A DNA stretch of 64,000 bases from Parvularculaceae bacterium (GCA_028284065.1 JANQSJ010000011.1:434001-498000); one strand, 5' to 3'; numbered from the stretch's first letter, positions 54,841-63,517 are shown. Translations and numbers: made by a program. The notes: generated by a model from the sequence alone, not told the origin.

Positions 54841-55575
54841 ATGACGCCAAGTTTTGTTGAAGGACCGAACGGCCGGATCGCCTATGAGCGGATCAACGGC
54901 GCTGGGCCCGGCGTTGTCTGGTTCGGCGGGTTTCGCTCCGATATGACTGGCTCGAAGGCGAGCCGCCTCGCCGACTGGGCCGGGCGGGAGGGCCGCGCCT
55001 ATCTTCGGTTCGATTACTCGGGGCATGGCGCGTCCGACGGCGAATTCGTCAAGGGCTGCATTTCCGAATGGCGGGACGACGCCCTCGCCGCGCTCGATGC
55101 GCTGACGCAAGGTCCGCAGATCTATGTGGGCTCCTCGATGGGCGCATGGATAGCGGCGCTGTGCGCCCGGGCCCGGCCGGGCGGCCTTCACGCCTTTGTC
55201 GGCATCGCGCCGGCGCCGGACTTCACCGAGGAGCTTATGCTGCCGACAATGCCAAAGGGTATGCGCCGCAGGATCGACGAAGACGGCCAGGCGGCGCTGC
55301 CTTCCGCCTATGATGAGCCGCCGACTATCATCACCCGCAAGCTGATCGAGGACGGGCGAAACAACCTTGTCCTGCGGGACGGAGTTCCCTTTGACGGACC
55401 GGTCAGACTGCTCCAGGGCATGGCGGACCCGGATGTCCCTTGGCGTCACGCGCCCCGCTTCGCCGAGGCGTTCGCCAGCACGGACGTTGAAGTTACGCTC
55501 ATCAAGGATGGCGACCATCGCCTCTCGCGAGACGAAGATCTCGACCGGTTAGAGCAGCTCTTGAGAGGCCTTTAG
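54841..55575 (+). CDS. Alpha/beta hydrolase (ABHD10-like)
   Basis: 244 residues. The nucleophile elbow is IYVGSSMGAWIAAL (Ser around residue 100). An oxyanion loop GGFRSDMTGSKA and FDYSGHGASDG come first. The acid is in LLQGMADPDVPW and the base His in LIKDGDHRLSRDED, completing the triad. It resembles the small cytosolic palmitoyl-protein/acyl thioesterase-like hydrolases found near infC in many alphaproteobacteria. The natural substrate is unknown. It ends 172 bases before the blaI start. Confidence 0.88.
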   Translation: MTPSFVEGPNGRIAYERINGAGPGVVWFGGFRSDMTGSKASRLADWAGREGRAYLRFDYSGHGASDGEFVKGCISEWRDDALAALDALTQGPQIYVGSSMGAWIAALCARARPGGLHAFVGIAPAPDFTEELMLPTMPKGMRRRIDEDGQAALPSAYDEPPTIITRKLIEDGRNNLVLRDGVPFDGPVRLLQGMADPDVPWRHAPRFAEAFASTDVEVTLIKDGDHRLSRDEDLDRLEQLLRGL

Positions 55576-55617: not shown

Positions 55618-55633
55618 TGCGACATCTGTCGCA
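55618..55633 (+). promoter_or_regulatory. Predicted BlaI operator in the blaI promoter
   Basis: The perfect palindrome TGCGACA-TC-TGTCGCA contains the GACA-N2-TGTC core expected for a BlaI/CopY-type repressor (known cores TACA-TGTA). It overlaps a possible -35 (TTGCGA, 55617) placed 17 bases before TAGAAC (55640), so binding would block RNA polymerase. The identical half-sites recur at 59218-59233. Confidence 0.72.
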
Positions 55634-55747
55634 TCACGATAGAACCTAATCCCAGGAACCCGCTATGAGGCATGAGGTTCGCTGGGACGCGCGAGCGAAC
55701 CCCGTGGCGGAATGCGGCCGATGGGCCGCACAAGGGAGAAGATGTCC

Positions 55748-56152
55748 ATGGTCGACGATTCATCCGTCCAGGGCGCGGCGAAGCCCGCCACGCAGCCGAC
55801 AAAGCCGGAGCTTGCGGTTCTCAAGCTGCTCTGGCGGCGGCGCGATCTGAGCGCGCGGCAGATTACCGAGGAGGTGGCGCCGCAGTTCAACTGGTCCTAT
55901 TCGACCATGCGCACGGTCCTTGAACGGATGTGCGAAAAAGGCCTCCTCACCAAGAAACCCGCTGGCGGCGTCAATGTTTATGCGGCCGGCGTCGGCAAGA
56001 TTGCGCTGCTCGGCGACATGATCCGCGATTTCTCCGATCGCGTGCTGGAGCTGGACGCCGCCCCCTCGGCGGTGATGTTCGCGGATTCAAAGCTCCTATC
56101 GGAGGACGAGCTTGCGGAGCTGGAAGAACGTCTGAGGGCGGAGGACGAGTAA
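55748..56152 (+). CDS. BlaI/MecI/CopY-family transcriptional repressor
   Basis: 134 residues from ATG 55748; AAGGGAG ends 9 bases before it (ATG 55742 is too close to the ribosome site). The winged helix (~20-90) reads ELAVLKLLWRRRDLSARQIT, FNWSYSTMRTVLERMCEKGL and the wing KKPAGGVNVYAA. The C-terminal helices (~95-134) should dimerise. BlaI-type proteins repress promoters until cleaved after a BlaR1-like M56 protease senses envelope damage. The next gene is such a protein and starts inside this gene's stop codon (TAATG), strongly supporting a repressor-sensor pair. Confidence 0.92.
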   Translation: MVDDSSVQGAAKPATQPTKPELAVLKLLWRRRDLSARQITEEVAPQFNWSYSTMRTVLERMCEKGLLTKKPAGGVNVYAAGVGKIALLGDMIRDFSDRVLELDAAPSAVMFADSKLLSEDELAELEERLRAEDE

Positions 56153-58992
56153 TGTCTTTTGATCTCTTCATGGACGAGCACCAGGTCCAGGCGCTCGTTA
56201 TTTGTCTTCTCGCGTCGCTCATCTGGGCGCCAATCGTCTTGTTGATCGCGCGCACGCTCGGCGAAGGCGCATCCATCCGCACAGCGCAGGCGATCTGGAT
56301 CGGGGCGCTCACCCTTAGCGTCGCCCCGGCCGCGCTCGCGCCGGGTCTTGCAGGCATCGGCGTATCTCTGCGCGCCGCGCCGCAGGAGATCGACGACCCG
56401 ACTGTAACCACAACATCCGTTGATCTGGATACGATATTTATTGAAACGACCGAAGCCGCCGAGGAACGCGTTGCGTTTGCGACGGCGACAACGCGTGCGG
56501 TCGCCAAAGACTATGAAGACGCGGCGCCGACTTCATTTGAAGTCAGGTCCGGTTCGGCCGCAATGCAGGAAGTCCCGCCCGGCATCGTCGCGACCCTCGG
56601 CTCCCCTGAAGGCGAGCCGAAAGCGGAGCGCCGCTTCGCAGTCCCGGAATGGCGATCCGGCGTCGATTTACTGGCCTCGCCGCAGGCGTTCAGCATCGCC
56701 GCAATACTCTACGGATACGGCGTTTTGCTCGCCGCGTTGATCTGGCTCAGCCGGAGCGTCGGCCTGCACTGGGTCGCGTCGACGGCCCGGCCGGTCCGCG
56801 ATCCCAAGATCCTCGCCGGCGTCGAGGCATGGCGCGCGCGCATCGGCGTGCGCGGGACGCCGCGACTGAGGCGCACGCCGCGCGTCTCCAGCGTCTGCGT
56901 GTTCGGCGTCTGGCGGCCGACCGTCCTTATACCTCACGATATTGAAACGCGGGTGTCGCAGGATGACGTCGTCATAATGTGCGCGCACGAATTGGCGCAT
57001 ATCCGCCGCCGCGACACCCAGCTCTTCTTCGCGACGACCCTCGTGCGCGCGCTCTTCTGGTTTAACCCGGCCGTCAAGGCGATCGCCGCGCATGTGGAGC
57101 AGGCGGCGGAGGAAGCCGCGGACGCACAAGTGCTGAGCCGCGGCGTCGACCGCAAGGCCTACGCCTCGTGCTTCATCGCCAGCCTTCGCTTCGCGGCGGA
57201 AAAAGCGGCGCGCCGCCCGGCGATGACGCCGACTTTCATCCCCGTCGACAGGCGCGGCCGGAGGCGGCGTCTCGACGCCATCCTGCATGAAAAGCACCGC
57301 AAGTCCGCGCCCATCGCGGCGCGCAGCCTGGCCGCGGGCGCGGCGCTCGCGATGGCCATTTGCGCCGTTGCGCAGGCGGGCTTCGCAGTCTCGCCGACCA
57401 GCATCGAAAACCGGCCCGCCTTCGTTGCGGACCTGCAGGAGCTTTTGACCCTGCCGAGCCCGGCTTCGCTAGCGTCGCCCAAGGTCGCTGAGGTAGACGT
57501 CGTCGCAGCGCCGGCCCCCGAACCGAGCCCTGCGCCGACGCCCGCCGCCGCGCCTGAGCCTGAGCCCGTCGCGGCGGTCAAGACGGCTCAGGGCGCCTGG
57601 GACACGCCGCAAACTTCTGACATCGAATTCATCGCCCCCGCCAAGGGCCGCATCAGCCTCGGCTTCGGCGCCGAAAGACCCTTCACGACGGGATATCACA
57701 AGGGCGTCGACATCGTCGCGCGCAAAGGGACCGCGGTCGTTGCATCCGGCGCCGGCATTGTGAGGATGACAGATGCAAAGGGTCGCTCCGCATACGGCAA
57801 GATGATCAAGATCGACCATGGCGAAGGCGTCTACACGAAATACGCGCACCTCAGCCGGATCGACGTAGAAACGGGGGACAAGGTCGCGGCCGGGCAGCTC
57901 ATCGCCGCGGTCGGCAATACAGGCCAGTCCACCGGCCCGCACCTCCATTTCGAAGTGTACCGCGACGGCCGCCCAGTCGATCCGATGGCGGCGCTTTCCG
58001 ACGCGGCAGCCGCGAAACTGGGATCCAAGCGAACGCGCGCGCCCAGCGCTCCACGCCTGAAAGCGGCGGCTCTTGATGGTTCCCGGACGGCGCGAGCCGC
58101 GCGCGCGCGCAAGCCCGTGCGCCTCGCCTTCTCGACGGCCAATCGCACGCCGGGGATCGCTAAGGCCGCAGGCGACGCCTTGTGGCTTGACGCCGCGGGC
58201 AAGGAAATTGCGGCGCGCCTTGAAGTCAGCCTGCTGCAGGACGCTGTCAACGCAGCTGACGCGCAGGATAATGCGGCCTCAGGCGACGTCCGCGCCCGCG
58301 GCGCTTTCGCGAAGATGGAGGCTGAGCTTGCCGACGCCCGCGCGCGACGGGCTAGCGCCAAAGCAAAGCGCAATGCGGAGACGAAGGCCGCGCAGGCGCG
58401 CGTCGAGTCCGCATCGGCGCAAAGGCGCGTGACCATTGAGCGGGATAGTTCGGCTGCGGAGGAGGCCCGACGCATCGCAGCTGAAGAACGCCGGCGCGCA
58501 GCCGAAGAGCGCGCCCGCGCCAGGGAGGAACGCGCACGCGAACGCGAAGCTGCTCGCGTCATCGCGGAAAAGTCCCGCGCTCGCGCCTGGGAAGAGGCCG
58601 AAGAAGCGAGGGCCCTCGCCGAAGCGCGCCGCCGCGACGCGCAGGCGCGCGCCGAGGAACACGCCGACAGGATCCGCGAGCAATTCGAAGAGCAGTTTTG
58701 CTGCGACGTCGGCGAAGACATTGAAGAGGTTATCCATTCGTCGATCGAAAGCGCGTTCGAAACCCTCGCCGATATCGAGGTCGAACTGAACGAGGTTGAT
58801 ATCTCGGGGCGCGCCGCAGAAGCATCACAACGCGCGCTTGAGACTGCTCGGGCGGCGCTCGCCGGCGCAGGACAGTCTGACGCGCTCGCCGCCGCCCGCG
58901 CCAAGATCGCCGACCAGGAAGCGGAAATTGCGCGCCTCAGAGCCGAACTGGCGACAGCGGCGCGCGCCGCGTCGAACGACCGCGACGAATAA
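56152..58992 (+). CDS. M56 (BlaR1-like) membrane protease fused to an M23 endopeptidase and coiled coil
   Basis: 946 residues. Membrane helices at ~10-32, ~45-65, ~180-199 and ~390-413 flank an M56 zinc protease domain with the HExxH motif in CAHELAHIRRRDTQ (His 279, 283) and EEAADAQVL downstream. A Pro/Ala-rich linker leads to an M23/LytM domain (~490-613) with its ligands His516 and Asp520 (HKGVDIV), His566 (YAHLS), and His597/His599 (GPHLHFEV). A long Ala/Arg/Glu coiled coil (~700-850), a CC pair near 850 and further helices follow. BlaR1 normally ends in a beta-lactam-binding domain; here a peptidoglycan-binding or -cutting module replaces it. It is co-translated with the BlaI repressor. 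Confidence 0.9.
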   Translation: MSFDLFMDEHQVQALVICLLASLIWAPIVLLIARTLGEGASIRTAQAIWIGALTLSVAPAALAPGLAGIGVSLRAAPQEIDDPTVTTTSVDLDTIFIETTEAAEERVAFATATTRAVAKDYEDAAPTSFEVRSGSAAMQEVPPGIVATLGSPEGEPKAERRFAVPEWRSGVDLLASPQAFSIAAILYGYGVLLAALIWLSRSVGLHWVASTARPVRDPKILAGVEAWRARIGVRGTPRLRRTPRVSSVCVFGVWRPTVLIPHDIETRVSQDDVVIMCAHELAHIRRRDTQLFFATTLVRALFWFNPAVKAIAAHVEQAAEEAADAQVLSRGVDRKAYASCFIASLRFAAEKAARRPAMTPTFIPVDRRGRRRRLDAILHEKHRKSAPIAARSLAAGAALAMAICAVAQAGFAVSPTSIENRPAFVADLQELLTLPSPASLASPKVAEVDVVAAPAPEPSPAPTPAAAPEPEPVAAVKTAQGAWDTPQTSDIEFIAPAKGRISLGFGAERPFTTGYHKGVDIVARKGTAVVASGAGIVRMTDAKGRSAYGKMIKIDHGEGVYTKYAHLSRIDVETGDKVAAGQLIAAVGNTGQSTGPHLHFEVYRDGRPVDPMAALSDAAAAKLGSKRTRAPSAPRLKAAALDGSRTARAARARKPVRLAFSTANRTPGIAKAAGDALWLDAAGKEIAARLEVSLLQDAVNAADAQDNAASGDVRARGAFAKMEAELADARARRASAKAKRNAETKAAQARVESASAQRRVTIERDSSAAEEARRIAAEERRRAAEERARAREERAREREAARVIAEKSRARAWEEAEEARALAEARRRDAQARAEEHADRIREQFEEQFCCDVGEDIEEVIHSSIESAFETLADIEVELNEVDISGRAAEASQRALETARAALAGAGQSDALAAARAKIADQEAEIARLRAELATAARAASNDRDE

Positions 58993-59217
58993 ATTCAAAC
59001 GCAGGCGAGCGGCGGCGACGACGCATTGTCGGTCGCGGGCGATCATCCTTGTTCGGCAGGCGCAGCGCCCGTCGGCCGCGCCGCGCGTTAACGCACCACA
59101 TCCATTCAAATTCGCGACTTCGCCCCGCCGCACGGTTCGCCGCAATGGCGGGACGCTTCGTCGAGTAGCCGCGATCCGCTCTTGTTTCCTTTACGAATAT
59201 GTCGTCTACGTCGGTTA

Positions 59218-59233
59218 TGCGACACATGTCGCA
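59218..59233 (+). promoter_or_regulatory. Predicted BlaI operator upstream of the RND pump
   Basis: TGCGACA-CA-TGTCGCA has the same two 7-base half-sites and 2-base spacing as the palindrome before blaI. It ends 26 bases before the pump ATG, between any promoter and the ribosome site, so a bound repressor would block transcription. Confidence 0.7.
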
Positions 59234-59259: not shown

Positions 59260-62200
59260 ATGGGACTTACGCGACTGGCGCTGAAGAACCCCGCCGCGCT
59301 CGCGGTCATCCTCGCCGTCATTGCGCTCTTTGCGGCGACATCCGCCACGCGCCTGCCGGTGCAGCTTTTCCCAAGCATTGAGCGACCGGTCATCGGCGTT
59401 TGGACTGGCTGGCGCGCGGCCAGCCCGCGGGAAGTAGAATCCGAGATCATCGACCCCATCGAAAGGGAGCTTCGCGGCGCGCCCGGGCTCTCCTCTATGC
59501 AGTCCTGGTCTAACGTCGGCGGCGGGTTCATCCGGCTGGAATTCGCCCTGGGCACCGACATGACCGCGGCGTTCGGCGACATCTCTAGCCGTCTTCAACG
59601 CGTGCGCGGCCTGCCCGCGGACGCCGACCGCCCGCGCATCCAGGCCAATGGCGGGGGCGATGCGGGCGAGACGCTGATCTTTCTCTTCCTCCAGCGCCTG
59701 CCCGGAACGGAAGGCGATGGCTTCGCCCTTGCGCGTTTCGCCAATGAGCGGCTCGCCCCGGAGCTTGAGGCCATCGATGGCGTCGGCGGCGTCGACGTCA
59801 ATGGCGACTATGGCGAAGAGATTCTGAAAATAACCTTCGATCCGTTCCTGGCGGCGGAGCGCGGGATTTCGATCGACGATATTGCGACGACGGTTAATCA
59901 GTCGACCGATGTCACCGGCGGCTCGGTCGAGGTTGGGCGGCGCAACTATACGCTTCGCTTTGAAGGTCGTTTCGATGCCGGAGAAATTGAAAATACGGTG
60001 CTCGCTTGGCGCAACGGCGCGCCGGTGCGCCTCGGGGATATCGCCGTCGCCAGCATCTCGCCCGACAGTCAGGGCGGCGTCGTCTTCCAGAACGGAAATC
60101 CGGCGATTGGCATGCGCATTATTCGCGAGCCCGGCGCCAACACGCTCGCCGCGATTGATGCGCTAACCGTCAAGATTGAGGAGTTGAACGCCGGCCCCCT
60201 CGCCGACCTCGGCTACGCCGTGCACAAGAGTTTCGATCCATCCGTCTTCATCAAACGCGCAATCGGCCTCCTCACCGGGAACCTCGCGATCGGGGTCCTG
60301 CTCGCAGTCGGCGCGCTGTGGCTATTCCTGCGGCGCACGCGCGCGACGCTGCTGATCGCATCGGCGATCCCGATTTCGCTTACGGCCACGATCGTCGTGC
60401 TGTCTCTCGCCGGGCGAACAATAAACATTATCTCCCTCGCCGGAATGGCTTTCGCGACCGGCATGGTGCTCGATGCGGCGATCGTGGTGCTTGAGAACTT
60501 CGTGCGCCTGCGGGAGGGCGGCGCGAAGCCCGAAAAAGCCGCCGAAGAAGCGGTCGGCCAGGTTTTCGGCGCGCTCTTCGCGTCGACAGTGACGACGATC
60601 GCCGTCTTCCTGCCGGTCATCTTCTTCGAAGACGTCGAGGGCCAGTTGTTCGCGGACCTCGCCCTGACGATCGCCATCGCCGTCTGCTTCAGCCTTGTCG
60701 CCGCGGTCACGGCCCTGCCTGTCGGCGCGGCGACGTTTCTGCGCGCGAGCGCAAAAGCAGCCGCAGGCGACGGACGAGCCGGTTTCGCGGAGGGCCTCGC
60801 CGGTCTCATCCTGGGGCTGACGAACAGCCCCCGCGCCCGCCTCGCCTGGATCGCCGGTCTGACGGCTGCGCCAATCGCGCTCGGCGTCGCCCTGTGGCCG
60901 CAACTGAATTACCTGCCGCCCGTGAAGCGCGACGCCGTGGACGGATTTATTTCGTTCCCTTCAGGCGCGAGCGCCGACATGGTGCGGGAGGAATTCGCCG
61001 AAATCGTCGTCGAGCGGCTGCAGCCATTCATGGACGGCGAGCGCGAACCGTCATTGCGGAACTACTACCTCTATACCGGCCCCTGGGGCGGCAATATCGG
61101 CGTCCGCGCAAAGGATCAGTCGGACGTCGAGGAGTTGTCGCGCATTGTGAACGAAGAGATCCTCTCCGGCTTCCCCGACACCCGCGTCTTCGCCCGCCAG
61201 GGCGATCTGTTCGGTCAGTTCGGCGGCGATGCGTCCGTAAGCCTTGATCTGCAGGCCGATGATTACGACGCGCTCGGCGACGCTGTGCCGGACGTCATCG
61301 ACCTAATTGAGGACGCTCTTCCCGGCGCCGATGTCTGGCCGAACCCTGATCCGCAGACGGTAAGCCCTGAAATCCGCGTCATCCCCAACGATCGCCGCAT
61401 CGCGGAAGTCGGCCTCGACCGGGCGAGCGTCGCTCGCGCCGTCAGGACGCTCGGCGACGGGCTCTGGCTCGGCGAATTCTTCCATGAAGGCGGCCGGCTC
61501 GACGTCTTCCTGCAAGCGCGGGAATGGACGGAACCGGAGTATCTCTCGCGAACACCGCTTGCGACGCCCAATGGCGCCGTCGTCTCGCTCGGAGAGGTCG
61601 CGACGATCGAGCGGAGCGTCGGTCCGCAGCAAATTCGCCGCCAGGAAGGGCGCCGCACGATTTCCCTAGGCGTCAACCCGCCGGACGGCATGCCGTTGAG
61701 CGAAGTCGTCGCGGCGATCCGCGAGGGCGCGGAGGCGGACATCTACGCCGCGCTGCCGGAAGGCGCGAGCATCGCCTACGCCGGCGAGGCCGATGCGCTG
61801 AAGCGCGCGGTGCGCAACCTCGGCGGCAATTTCCTGCTGGCGATCGCCATTTTGTTCCTGATCCTCGCAGCGCTCTTCAAGTCGATGCGCGACGCCGCCT
61901 ATGTCGTGATCGCATTGCCCATGGCGGCGGTCGGCGGCGTTGCGGCGTTGCGCCTGATGAACCTCGTCAGCCCGACCCCGCTCGATCTTCTCGGCATGAT
62001 CGGCTTCATTATCCTTCTCGGCCTTGTCGTGAACAACGCCATCCTTCTTGTCGCGCAAACGCGCGCATCGGAAAGGGCCGGCCTTGACCGCCGCGCAGCG
62101 GTGCGCTCTGCGCTGACGCTTCGCATTCGTCCAATTTTCATGTCGACGACGACGTCGCTCATGGGCATGGCGCCGCTGGTCCTGTCGCCTGGCGCCGGGA

Positions 62201-62352
62201 GCATGATCTATCGCGGCCTCGCCACGGTGATCGTCGGCGGCATGGCGATCTCGACCCTCTTTACCCTGATTTTGTTGCCGGCGCTGTTGCAGCTCGGCGT
62301 CGCCCGCGAACGGGACGCGCACGTCGCGGCAGGCCAACCGGCCGCCGCCTGA
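59260..62352 (+). CDS. RND-superfamily efflux pump (AcrB/HAE-like)
   Basis: 1030 residues from ATG 59260 (GGAG 7 bases upstream). Twelve membrane helices with two large periplasmic loops. N-terminal LTRLALKNPAALAVILAVIA and LPVQLFPSIERPVIGVWTGW are typical. The fourth-helix proton-relay region reads GMVLDAAIVVLENFVRLREG, with one acidic residue where AcrB has Asp-Asp, and the tenth-helix region is LLGLVVNNAILLVAQTR. It exports small molecules using the proton gradient and needs an adaptor and an outer-membrane channel. The adaptor gene follows 16 bases later; no TolC-like gene is present. A BlaI-like operator lies just upstream. Confidence 0.94.
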   Translation: MGLTRLALKNPAALAVILAVIALFAATSATRLPVQLFPSIERPVIGVWTGWRAASPREVESEIIDPIERELRGAPGLSSMQSWSNVGGGFIRLEFALGTDMTAAFGDISSRLQRVRGLPADADRPRIQANGGGDAGETLIFLFLQRLPGTEGDGFALARFANERLAPELEAIDGVGGVDVNGDYGEEILKITFDPFLAAERGISIDDIATTVNQSTDVTGGSVEVGRRNYTLRFEGRFDAGEIENTVLAWRNGAPVRLGDIAVASISPDSQGGVVFQNGNPAIGMRIIREPGANTLAAIDALTVKIEELNAGPLADLGYAVHKSFDPSVFIKRAIGLLTGNLAIGVLLAVGALWLFLRRTRATLLIASAIPISLTATIVVLSLAGRTINIISLAGMAFATGMVLDAAIVVLENFVRLREGGAKPEKAAEEAVGQVFGALFASTVTTIAVFLPVIFFEDVEGQLFADLALTIAIAVCFSLVAAVTALPVGAATFLRASAKAAAGDGRAGFAEGLAGLILGLTNSPRARLAWIAGLTAAPIALGVALWPQLNYLPPVKRDAVDGFISFPSGASADMVREEFAEIVVERLQPFMDGEREPSLRNYYLYTGPWGGNIGVRAKDQSDVEELSRIVNEEILSGFPDTRVFARQGDLFGQFGGDASVSLDLQADDYDALGDAVPDVIDLIEDALPGADVWPNPDPQTVSPEIRVIPNDRRIAEVGLDRASVARAVRTLGDGLWLGEFFHEGGRLDVFLQAREWTEPEYLSRTPLATPNGAVVSLGEVATIERSVGPQQIRRQEGRRTISLGVNPPDGMPLSEVVAAIREGAEADIYAALPEGASIAYAGEADALKRAVRNLGGNFLLAIAILFLILAALFKSMRDAAYVVIALPMAAVGGVAALRLMNLVSPTPLDLLGMIGFIILLGLVVNNAILLVAQTRASERAGLDRRAAVRSALTLRIRPIFMSTTTSLMGMAPLVLSPGAGSMIYRGLATVIVGGMAISTLFTLILLPALLQLGVARERDAHVAAGQPAAA

Positions 62353-62368: not shown

Positions 62369-63517
62369 ATGGCTGATCGCGCATCGCCAAGGCCAAAGCC
62401 GGGCCGCCGCCGTCGCGCGCTCTTCGCCGCCGCGGCGGTCGCCGCCGCCGGAGCCGGGTTCGTCGGCGTCGCTGCCTTTCTTCAGAGCGACGGCCCCTCG
62501 GCGCTCGCTGCGGAGGAGCCGGACGAGGCCGCCGGGCCGCCCCCTGCGCCGGTCGTCGTCGCCGAGGCGGTGGAGAGGATGCTCGCGCCCGTCGCCGAAG
62601 CGCCCGGCTCGGCGGTCAGCGTCTCGGACAGCGTCGTCGCAGCGGCGACGACGGGGAAAGTCATTTGGGTCGCCGAGATCGGCGATGAAATTGATGCGGG
62701 CGGGGTAATAGCGCGGCTTGATCCCGCCGACGCGGAGCTGTCGCTGCGAGACGCCCGTGCGGAGGTCAAGCGTCTTAAGGCGCGTGCGGATTATCTCGAA
62801 CGCCTCGTGGCGCGCTATGAGGGCCTCGGCGAGGACTCAGGCGAATCTGAGGCGACTCTCGACGAGGTTCGCGCAAGTTATGGCGAAGCGCTAGGCGCGC
62901 TGGAACGCGGCCGCGTCACGGTTCGGCGGGCCGAAGTCGATCTTGAACGCACCGATATTAAGGCGCCGTTTGCGGGCCGCGTGGCGACGCGGGAAATCGA
63001 AGTCGGCGAATTCGCCACCATTGGCGCGCCGATCGCGCGCTTCGTCGACACCTCTCGCCTTGAGGTCAGCGCCCGCGCGCCGGCTGACATGCTGGCCAAT
63101 GTCGCCGCAGGCGACGAGATCGCGGTGCGCTACCGCGCCGAAGAGACGGCCGCGCGGGTGCGCGCCGTGGTGCCGGTGGGCGACGAAGTCACGCGCACCC
63201 TCGAAATCCGCGTGAGCCTCGCCGAGACCGACTGGCCGATCGGCGCGCCCGTGCGCGTGCAGTTGCCCTCCGCCGCCCCGCGCCGCGCCGTCGCCGCGCC
63301 GCGCGATGCGCTTGTTCTGCGGTCTGACGGCGCGTTTCTGTTCAAGCTCAACGCCGACGACACGGCTGTGCGCGTGCCTGTCACGCTCGGCGCGGCCGAA
63401 GGCGACCTGATCGAAGTCATCGGCGAGGTGCGCGCCGGCGAACGCATCGTGGTGCGCGGCGCGGAACGCCTTCGCGACGGCCAGAACGTCACCGTCAAGG
63501 AGACGCCGACGTCCTGA
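62369..63517 (+). CDS. RND efflux periplasmic adaptor
   Basis: 382 residues from ATG 62369 with CGGAGGAG upstream. Basic N-terminus and membrane anchor (RRRRALFAAAAVAAAGAGFV), then the lipoyl half GKVIWVAEIGDEIDAGGVIA, a short coiled-coil hairpin (~130-185), the second half TDIKAPFAGRVATREIEVGE, a beta-barrel and a membrane-proximal domain. It links the RND pump encoded just before it to an outer-membrane channel. Pump-before-adaptor order is opposite to the acrAB order. There is no lipobox; the anchor is probably a membrane helix. Confidence 0.92.
   Translation: MADRASPRPKPGRRRRALFAAAAVAAAGAGFVGVAAFLQSDGPSALAAEEPDEAAGPPPAPVVVAEAVERMLAPVAEAPGSAVSVSDSVVAAATTGKVIWVAEIGDEIDAGGVIARLDPADAELSLRDARAEVKRLKARADYLERLVARYEGLGEDSGESEATLDEVRASYGEALGALERGRVTVRRAEVDLERTDIKAPFAGRVATREIEVGEFATIGAPIARFVDTSRLEVSARAPADMLANVAAGDEIAVRYRAEETAARVRAVVPVGDEVTRTLEIRVSLAETDWPIGAPVRVQLPSAAPRRAVAAPRDALVLRSDGAFLFKLNADDTAVRVPVTLGAAEGDLIEVIGEVRAGERIVVRGAERLRDGQNVTVKETPTS

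Follow-up and report, generated by a model that had tools for sequence, protein, structure and literature searches.

A palindrome common to a blaI-M56/M23 operon and an adjacent RND pump operon suggests a BlaI-type circuit with lineage-specific pump control in Parvularculaceae

BlaI/BlaR1 signalling logic is textbook knowledge only for the induction of beta-lactamase and PBP2a, and many promoters of the BlaI class carry two dyads. In the staphylococcal BlaI and MecI repressors the scissile bond is N101-F102, and in Bacillus licheniformis a peptidoglycan fragment has been reported to act on BlaI itself (PMC3305447). Regulons beyond beta-lactamase are described for the BlaI of M. tuberculosis (Rv1846c; the ATP synthase operon and ftsQ) and for that of C. 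thermocellum (several paired-dyad operons) (PMC12565901, PMC8457756). The published operator consensus of the CopY/BlaI class is the 16-bp sequence RNYKACANNTGTMRNY (PMC7253601). According to a review, M23 proteins rarely carry an M56 peptidase as a further catalytic domain (PMC9662197). A literature search, with subscription papers mostly outside its reach, gave no experimental precedent for a BlaI-RND or a BlaR1-M23 link.

The locus described here lies in the window, i.e. the whole stretch of 64,000 nt that was analysed, from a member of the Parvularculaceae, which are marine alphaproteobacteria, and comprises the following features.

54841..55575, plus strand: alpha/beta hydrolase (Hydrolase_4 by Pfam), preceding blaI in almost every cluster locus
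55618..55633, no strand: putative operator 1, TGCGACA-TC-TGTCGCA, lying between the stop codon of the hydrolase and blaI; counterpart in 35/35 loci
55742..56152, plus strand: blaI, BlaI/MecI/CopY-family repressor of 136 aa (PF03965, E=5e-21)
56152..58992, plus strand: M56/M23 fusion protein of 946 aa (PF05569 and PF01551; hydropathy, alignment A1 and an AlphaFold model)
59218..59233, no strand: putative operator 2, TGCGACA-CA-TGTCGCA, ending 26 bp ahead of the RND start codon; in 10/29 assessable genomes
59260..62352, plus strand: RND permease of 1030 aa, AcrB/MdtB-C-like, HAE-type (PF00873, E=8e-177)
62369..63517, plus strand: periplasmic adaptor (RND_mfp) of the HlyD type (TIGR01730 above cut-off; PF13437/PF16576)

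The blaI, M56/M23, RND permease and adaptor genes are all on the plus strand. The start of blaI was chosen by its ribosome-binding context, GGGAGAAG-ATG, and the M56/M23 start overlaps the blaI stop (TAATG). The adaptor is probably co-transcribed with the permease. The alpha/beta hydrolase, which lies directly upstream of the operator and is conserved in synteny, is not clearly a member of the circuit.

The palindrome TGCGACA-N2-TGTCGCA is present in two perfect copies, TGCGACATCTGTCGCA at 55618-55633 and TGCGACACATGTCGCA at 59218-59233. The coordinates, the identical 7-base arms and the 2-base spacing are exactly as in the original prediction, and so are the 26 bases between the end of site 2 and the RND ATG (59260). 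The prediction had also held that the window has no third copy, and none is found there even when up to two mismatches are allowed. The two copies are the only perfect ones in the genome (3,735,946 bases, ~3.74 Mb), where the reversed control pattern has no exact match; thus the palindrome is not common genome-wide. With up to two mismatches the pattern is found at 14 places in this genome and the reversed control at 8, which marks most of the looser matches as noise. The 62 genomes of the family contain 20 exact matches to the pattern, 14 of them directly before a blaI, and 2 to the control. The proposed likeness of the core to BlaI/CopY operators is borne out, as the inner 14 positions agree with RNYKACANNTGTMRNY, the outermost pair being the exception. 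The proposed overlap of site 1 with a blaI -35 box found no support, however: a promoter scan gave no sigma-70-like promoter at site 1 or site 2, and TTGCGA-N17-TAGAAC is a promoter reading by eye.

The domain assignments by Pfam (PF03965 for BlaI, PF05569 with PF01551 for the M56/M23 protein and PF00873 for the RND permease) are those expected from the original prediction. BlaI scores 75.6 bits against PF03965 (cut-off 22.6) over residues 20-132, and the winged-helix Penicillinase_R domain covers most of the protein. MecI/BlaI structures match it at E~1e-9. The position of the staphylococcal N101-F102 bond aligns with M112-F113 of this BlaI, and F113 is invariant among 19 BlaIs.

Conservation of the element was followed in 35 blaI loci: those of the window, G048, g2 and g7, and the more distant g3 and g8. 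All 35 have an ACA-N2-TGT dyad before blaI, i.e. the conservation in relatives with the same locus that a true operator would call for, and the autoregulatory KACA-N2-TGTM core is upstream of blaI in all of them. Column counts are T34 G35 C34 [G20/T15] A35 C35 A35 for the left arm and, after a free N2, T35 G35 T35 [C28/A6] [G27/A8] C35 A31 for the right arm. ACA and TGT are invariant, position 4 is G or T and the centre is free. Such fixed arms around a variable centre are as expected of a dimer operator. A second dyad is found near blaI in most g2 and g7 loci, at a commonest distance of 19 bp in g2 and 28 bp in g7; the g1 blaI and RND promoters have a single dyad each. Paired dyads are likewise a feature of the C. 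thermocellum BlaI regulons that were defined by experiment (PMC8457756). G101, which belongs to another family of the same order, shows a blaI-type locus with a dyad pair spaced by 19 bp.

The M56/M23 protein has four predicted transmembrane segments by hydropathy (positions 14-32, ~48-66, 179-197 and ~388-413). M56 lies between segments three and four, and M23 follows segment four. M56 (PF05569, 90.5 bits) carries HELAH at 279-283 together with E320, and both are invariant among the 15 homologs of alignment A1. The M23 domain (~515-611) has LytM-fold matches and the HxxxD...HxH ligand pattern, as H516xxxD520 and HLH at 597-599. Each of the ligand positions H516, D520, H597 and H599 shows >=90% conservation in A1; the ligands are degenerate in G006 (L068). 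The tail is long, charged and helical. Pfam detects no penicillin-binding (transpeptidase-like) domain in this protein, and M23 stands in its place. The score against blaR1_generic is far below the equivalog cut-off (68.4 vs 400 bits). The AlphaFold model is of low confidence (pLDDT 69, pTM 0.44), and a PDB fold search with it gave only M23 proteins among the 50 matches listed, with no support for BlaR1 from structure. The domain order is that of BlaR1, with another domain in the place of the sensor. With an intact M23 domain where the penicillin-binding domain would be, direct sensing of beta-lactams by acylation is unlikely. The most plausible cue is peptidoglycan or the envelope, and the M23 domain would read or cut peptidoglycan here. 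A wall-derived signal has precedent in the peptidoglycan fragment acting on the B. licheniformis BlaI (PMC3305447).

Taken together, it is likely that both palindromes are operators of BlaI, through which it represses its own operon and the RND operon, and that the M56/M23 protein relieves this repression. A BlaI dimer would bind TGC[G/T]ACA-N2-TGT[C/A]GCA and repress two units, the operon of blaI and the M56/M23 sensor and the adjacent operon of RND permease and adaptor. The sensor would be a BlaR1-like membrane metalloprotease in which the extracytoplasmic penicillin sensor has been swapped for a LytM/M23 peptidoglycan-peptidase domain. An altered cell wall would be sensed by the M23 domain, the cytoplasmic M56 protease would then cut or otherwise inactivate BlaI, and the loss of BlaI would induce sensor and pump together. 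The sites and their conservation, the gene linkage, the domain plan and the intact metal-site motifs are read from the sequence; repression, the nature of the signal, proteolysis of BlaI and the substrate of the pump are inferred. In the original prediction this was called a cell-envelope stress circuit: the linkage of operators and genes is supported, but "cell-envelope stress" is an inference from the M23 domain. Against the reading as a whole stand the pump sites missing from most g7 genomes and from G001, the single dyads of the g1 promoters, the negative result of the sigma-70 scan at both sites, the low confidence and M23-only matches of the structural model, and the failure to identify an outer-membrane factor gene next to the pump.

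The RND permease has the AcrB-type domain at full length (PF00873), and its closest characterised relatives are drug pumps, as in HAE-type RND proteins. By sequence its best PDB match is MdtB, and it is nearer to multidrug-type permease models than to CusA; the NCBIfam model RND_permease_2 is below cut-off. No gene next to the pump could be identified as an outer-membrane factor. The cluster of blaI, M56/M23, RND permease and adaptor is kept in three Parvularculaceae genera (g1, g2 and g7). Orthologs of the permease (E<=1e-200) are present in 30 of the 62 family genomes, all of g1, g2 or g7, and absent at this threshold from the six other genera. In g3 and g8, M56 and M23 matches lie beside blaI with the same operator and without the RND ortholog.

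Pump sites were located by scoring every position of the cluster loci with a weighted match (maximum 20), the blaI and RND promoters being masked for the background. Sites scoring >=17 lie upstream of RND in 10 of the 29 genomes with an assessable region: 2/2 in g1 (perfect), 5/7 in g2 and 3/20 in g7, where one of the three (G019) has a core mismatch. Thus control of the pump is lineage-specific. The predicted link between repressor, sensor and pump is well supported as a linkage, and the pump-site check on relatives upholds it within these genomes, but pump control is not family-wide. The pump of G001 has no site and is not linked to blaI, which lies ~790 kb away. On the RND tree at least four changes are required to explain the distribution of the site, which is clustered (a count as low arose in 1 of 500 shuffles). 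The pattern fits a state shared by g1 and g2, with losses, and independent gains in g7.

The alternative that survives best is that BlaI autoregulates via site 1, while the pump site is a relic or weak and expression of the pump depends mainly on a conserved promoter of its own or on transcription running on from the blaI operon. Of the 20 Marinicaulis (g7) genomes 17 lack the site, as does G006, with synteny kept, and the gap between M56 and RND is mostly 120-230 bp. A distinct conserved block, TCGTCGATA..CGGATGCGC, is seen by eye before the g7 RND gene whether the operator is present or not (L070, L071, L072, L074), and may be the pump's own promoter. Against a relic, however, g1 and five g2 genomes keep both arms of the pump site nearly perfect while the flanks have diverged, and the free centre fits purifying selection for binding. 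When G000 is compared with G048, no part of the intergenic region is better conserved than the block that holds the RND operator. This alternative is regarded as unlikely. As far as sequence can show, control of the pump by BlaI is genuine in the lineage of the window and variable elsewhere.

It would be quite improbable that site 2 serves a different transcription factor that recognises a similar half-site, or an unrelated pump regulator. The genome of the window has one canonical BlaI and one full M56 protein, so the palindromes are reasonably assigned to this BlaI. A second PF03965-like frame (C17:347884) could be a source of such a factor, but it is marginal (E=3e-4). G000 and G048 have one canonical BlaI each, the arms of sites 1 and 2 are identical, and the occurrence of the element follows that of BlaI loci, both within the family and in G101.

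A copper- or metal-responsive system of the CopY type, driving a metal RND pump, is less probable still. The operator class is common to CopY, and among NCBIfam models BlaI matches CopY_TcrY best; the score against CopY (TIGR02698) is, however, 51.7 bits, far under the equivalog cut-off of 121.95, and BlaI has no CXC metal motif. BlaI is paired with an M56 protease, and the nearest relatives of the permease are MdtB/HAE pumps and not CusA.

That the pump-proximal palindrome is a chance match can practically be dismissed: short palindromes do occur, and two-mismatch sites in the genome are mostly noise, but the genome has no further exact copy, and the site is conserved, being common to g1 and g2, which already contradicts chance; moreover, the only site of >=17 outside the masked promoters in 302,260 positions (~302 kb) belongs to the pump of G005, where the RND gene is truncated and had not been caught by the mask, leaving no unexplained background site against the 10 upstream of RND in 29 genomes.

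Several candidate sites lie outside the window and are leads. In Marinicaulis, BlaI-type dyads are found upstream of an operon of tonB and a PAS/histidine kinase in all 22 g7 genomes examined (L275-L300, e.g. L223:3474-3489). These are exact or have 1-2 core changes, are often two in number at 22-28 bp apart, and are also present in g7 genomes with a single BlaI (G039, G043). No strong dyad was found before tonB in the g2, g4 and g6 genomes examined closely. In four Marinicaulis genomes (L206, L215, L226, L088) exact degenerate-pattern sites stand before a gene that resembles those of TonB-dependent receptors. Intergenic sites are also found before a LysM protein gene in g2 (L193, L195), a histone-deacetylase-like gene in g7 (L204, L211) and a DegP-like protease gene in G009 (L082); these last three genes are possible further envelope-related members of the regulon. 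In g3 and g4 a second type of blaI is paired with an M56 protein (L196, L197, L199-L201, L203) and preceded by variants such as TGTGACANNTGTCACA; the M56 protein of L196 has a weak C-terminal TonB_C match.

Other matches were rejected. A one-mismatch copy in the genome of the window, TGCGACAGATGTAGCA, is 28 bp before the gene of a secreted HExxH protein (C8:398502; L004:1501-1516). It is not accepted as a third member of the regulon, since the orthologs in G011, G001 and G081 have no site and the genome has one scoring match to the control pattern too. The one-mismatch copy at C8:54665 is inside an ArsC/Spx-like reading frame and is ascribed to chance. Recurrent matches in Marinicaulis are coding, within a MoxR-type ATPase frame (fam7, named by eye), as are those of G028 and G031, within a RegA-like response regulator frame.

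A wider proposal, put forward as possible rather than probable, is that of a dedicated alphaproteobacterial system of wall surveillance, in which M23 would read peptidoglycan directly and BlaI be released, and whose regulon would have been rewired repeatedly (RND in g1 and g2, the TonB/histidine-kinase operon in Marinicaulis). If the proposed circuit is correct, an intrinsic RND efflux pump would be coupled to direct inspection of the cell wall via BlaI/BlaR1 logic, and the sensor domain of BlaR1-type proteases would be modular. The locus would then offer a clean system for asking which non-beta-lactam cue such proteases read, as well as an example of the rewiring of a repressor regulon among closely related genera.

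In comparison with the BlaI-BlaR1 and MecI-MecR1 systems of Staphylococcus and Bacillus licheniformis, the locus has the same repressor family, the ACA-N2-TGT core and the repressor-sensor operon. It also shares a four-TM M56 metalloprotease with the sensor domain after the last TM, as in BlaR1/MecR1, and F at P1' of the cleavage position of the repressor, as in BlaI/MecI. It differs in its sensor, which is M23/LytM in place of the penicillin-binding domain, in its output, an RND pump as against beta-lactamase or PBP2a, and in its host, a Gram-negative alphaproteobacterium. The 16-bp operator class RNYKACANNTGTMRNY is that of the CopR/CopY copper repressors (PMC7253601); unlike these, the present system has no CXC metal motif, has a protease as partner and has a pump that is not CusA-like, and the outermost operator pair is T/A here and R/Y in the CopY consensus. 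For the BlaI regulons of M. tuberculosis and C. thermocellum no RND pump or M23-bearing sensor is described. The M56-bearing M23 proteins of the review (PMC9662197) are without an assigned function or regulon there, whereas the fusion protein described here is tied to an operator and a pump.
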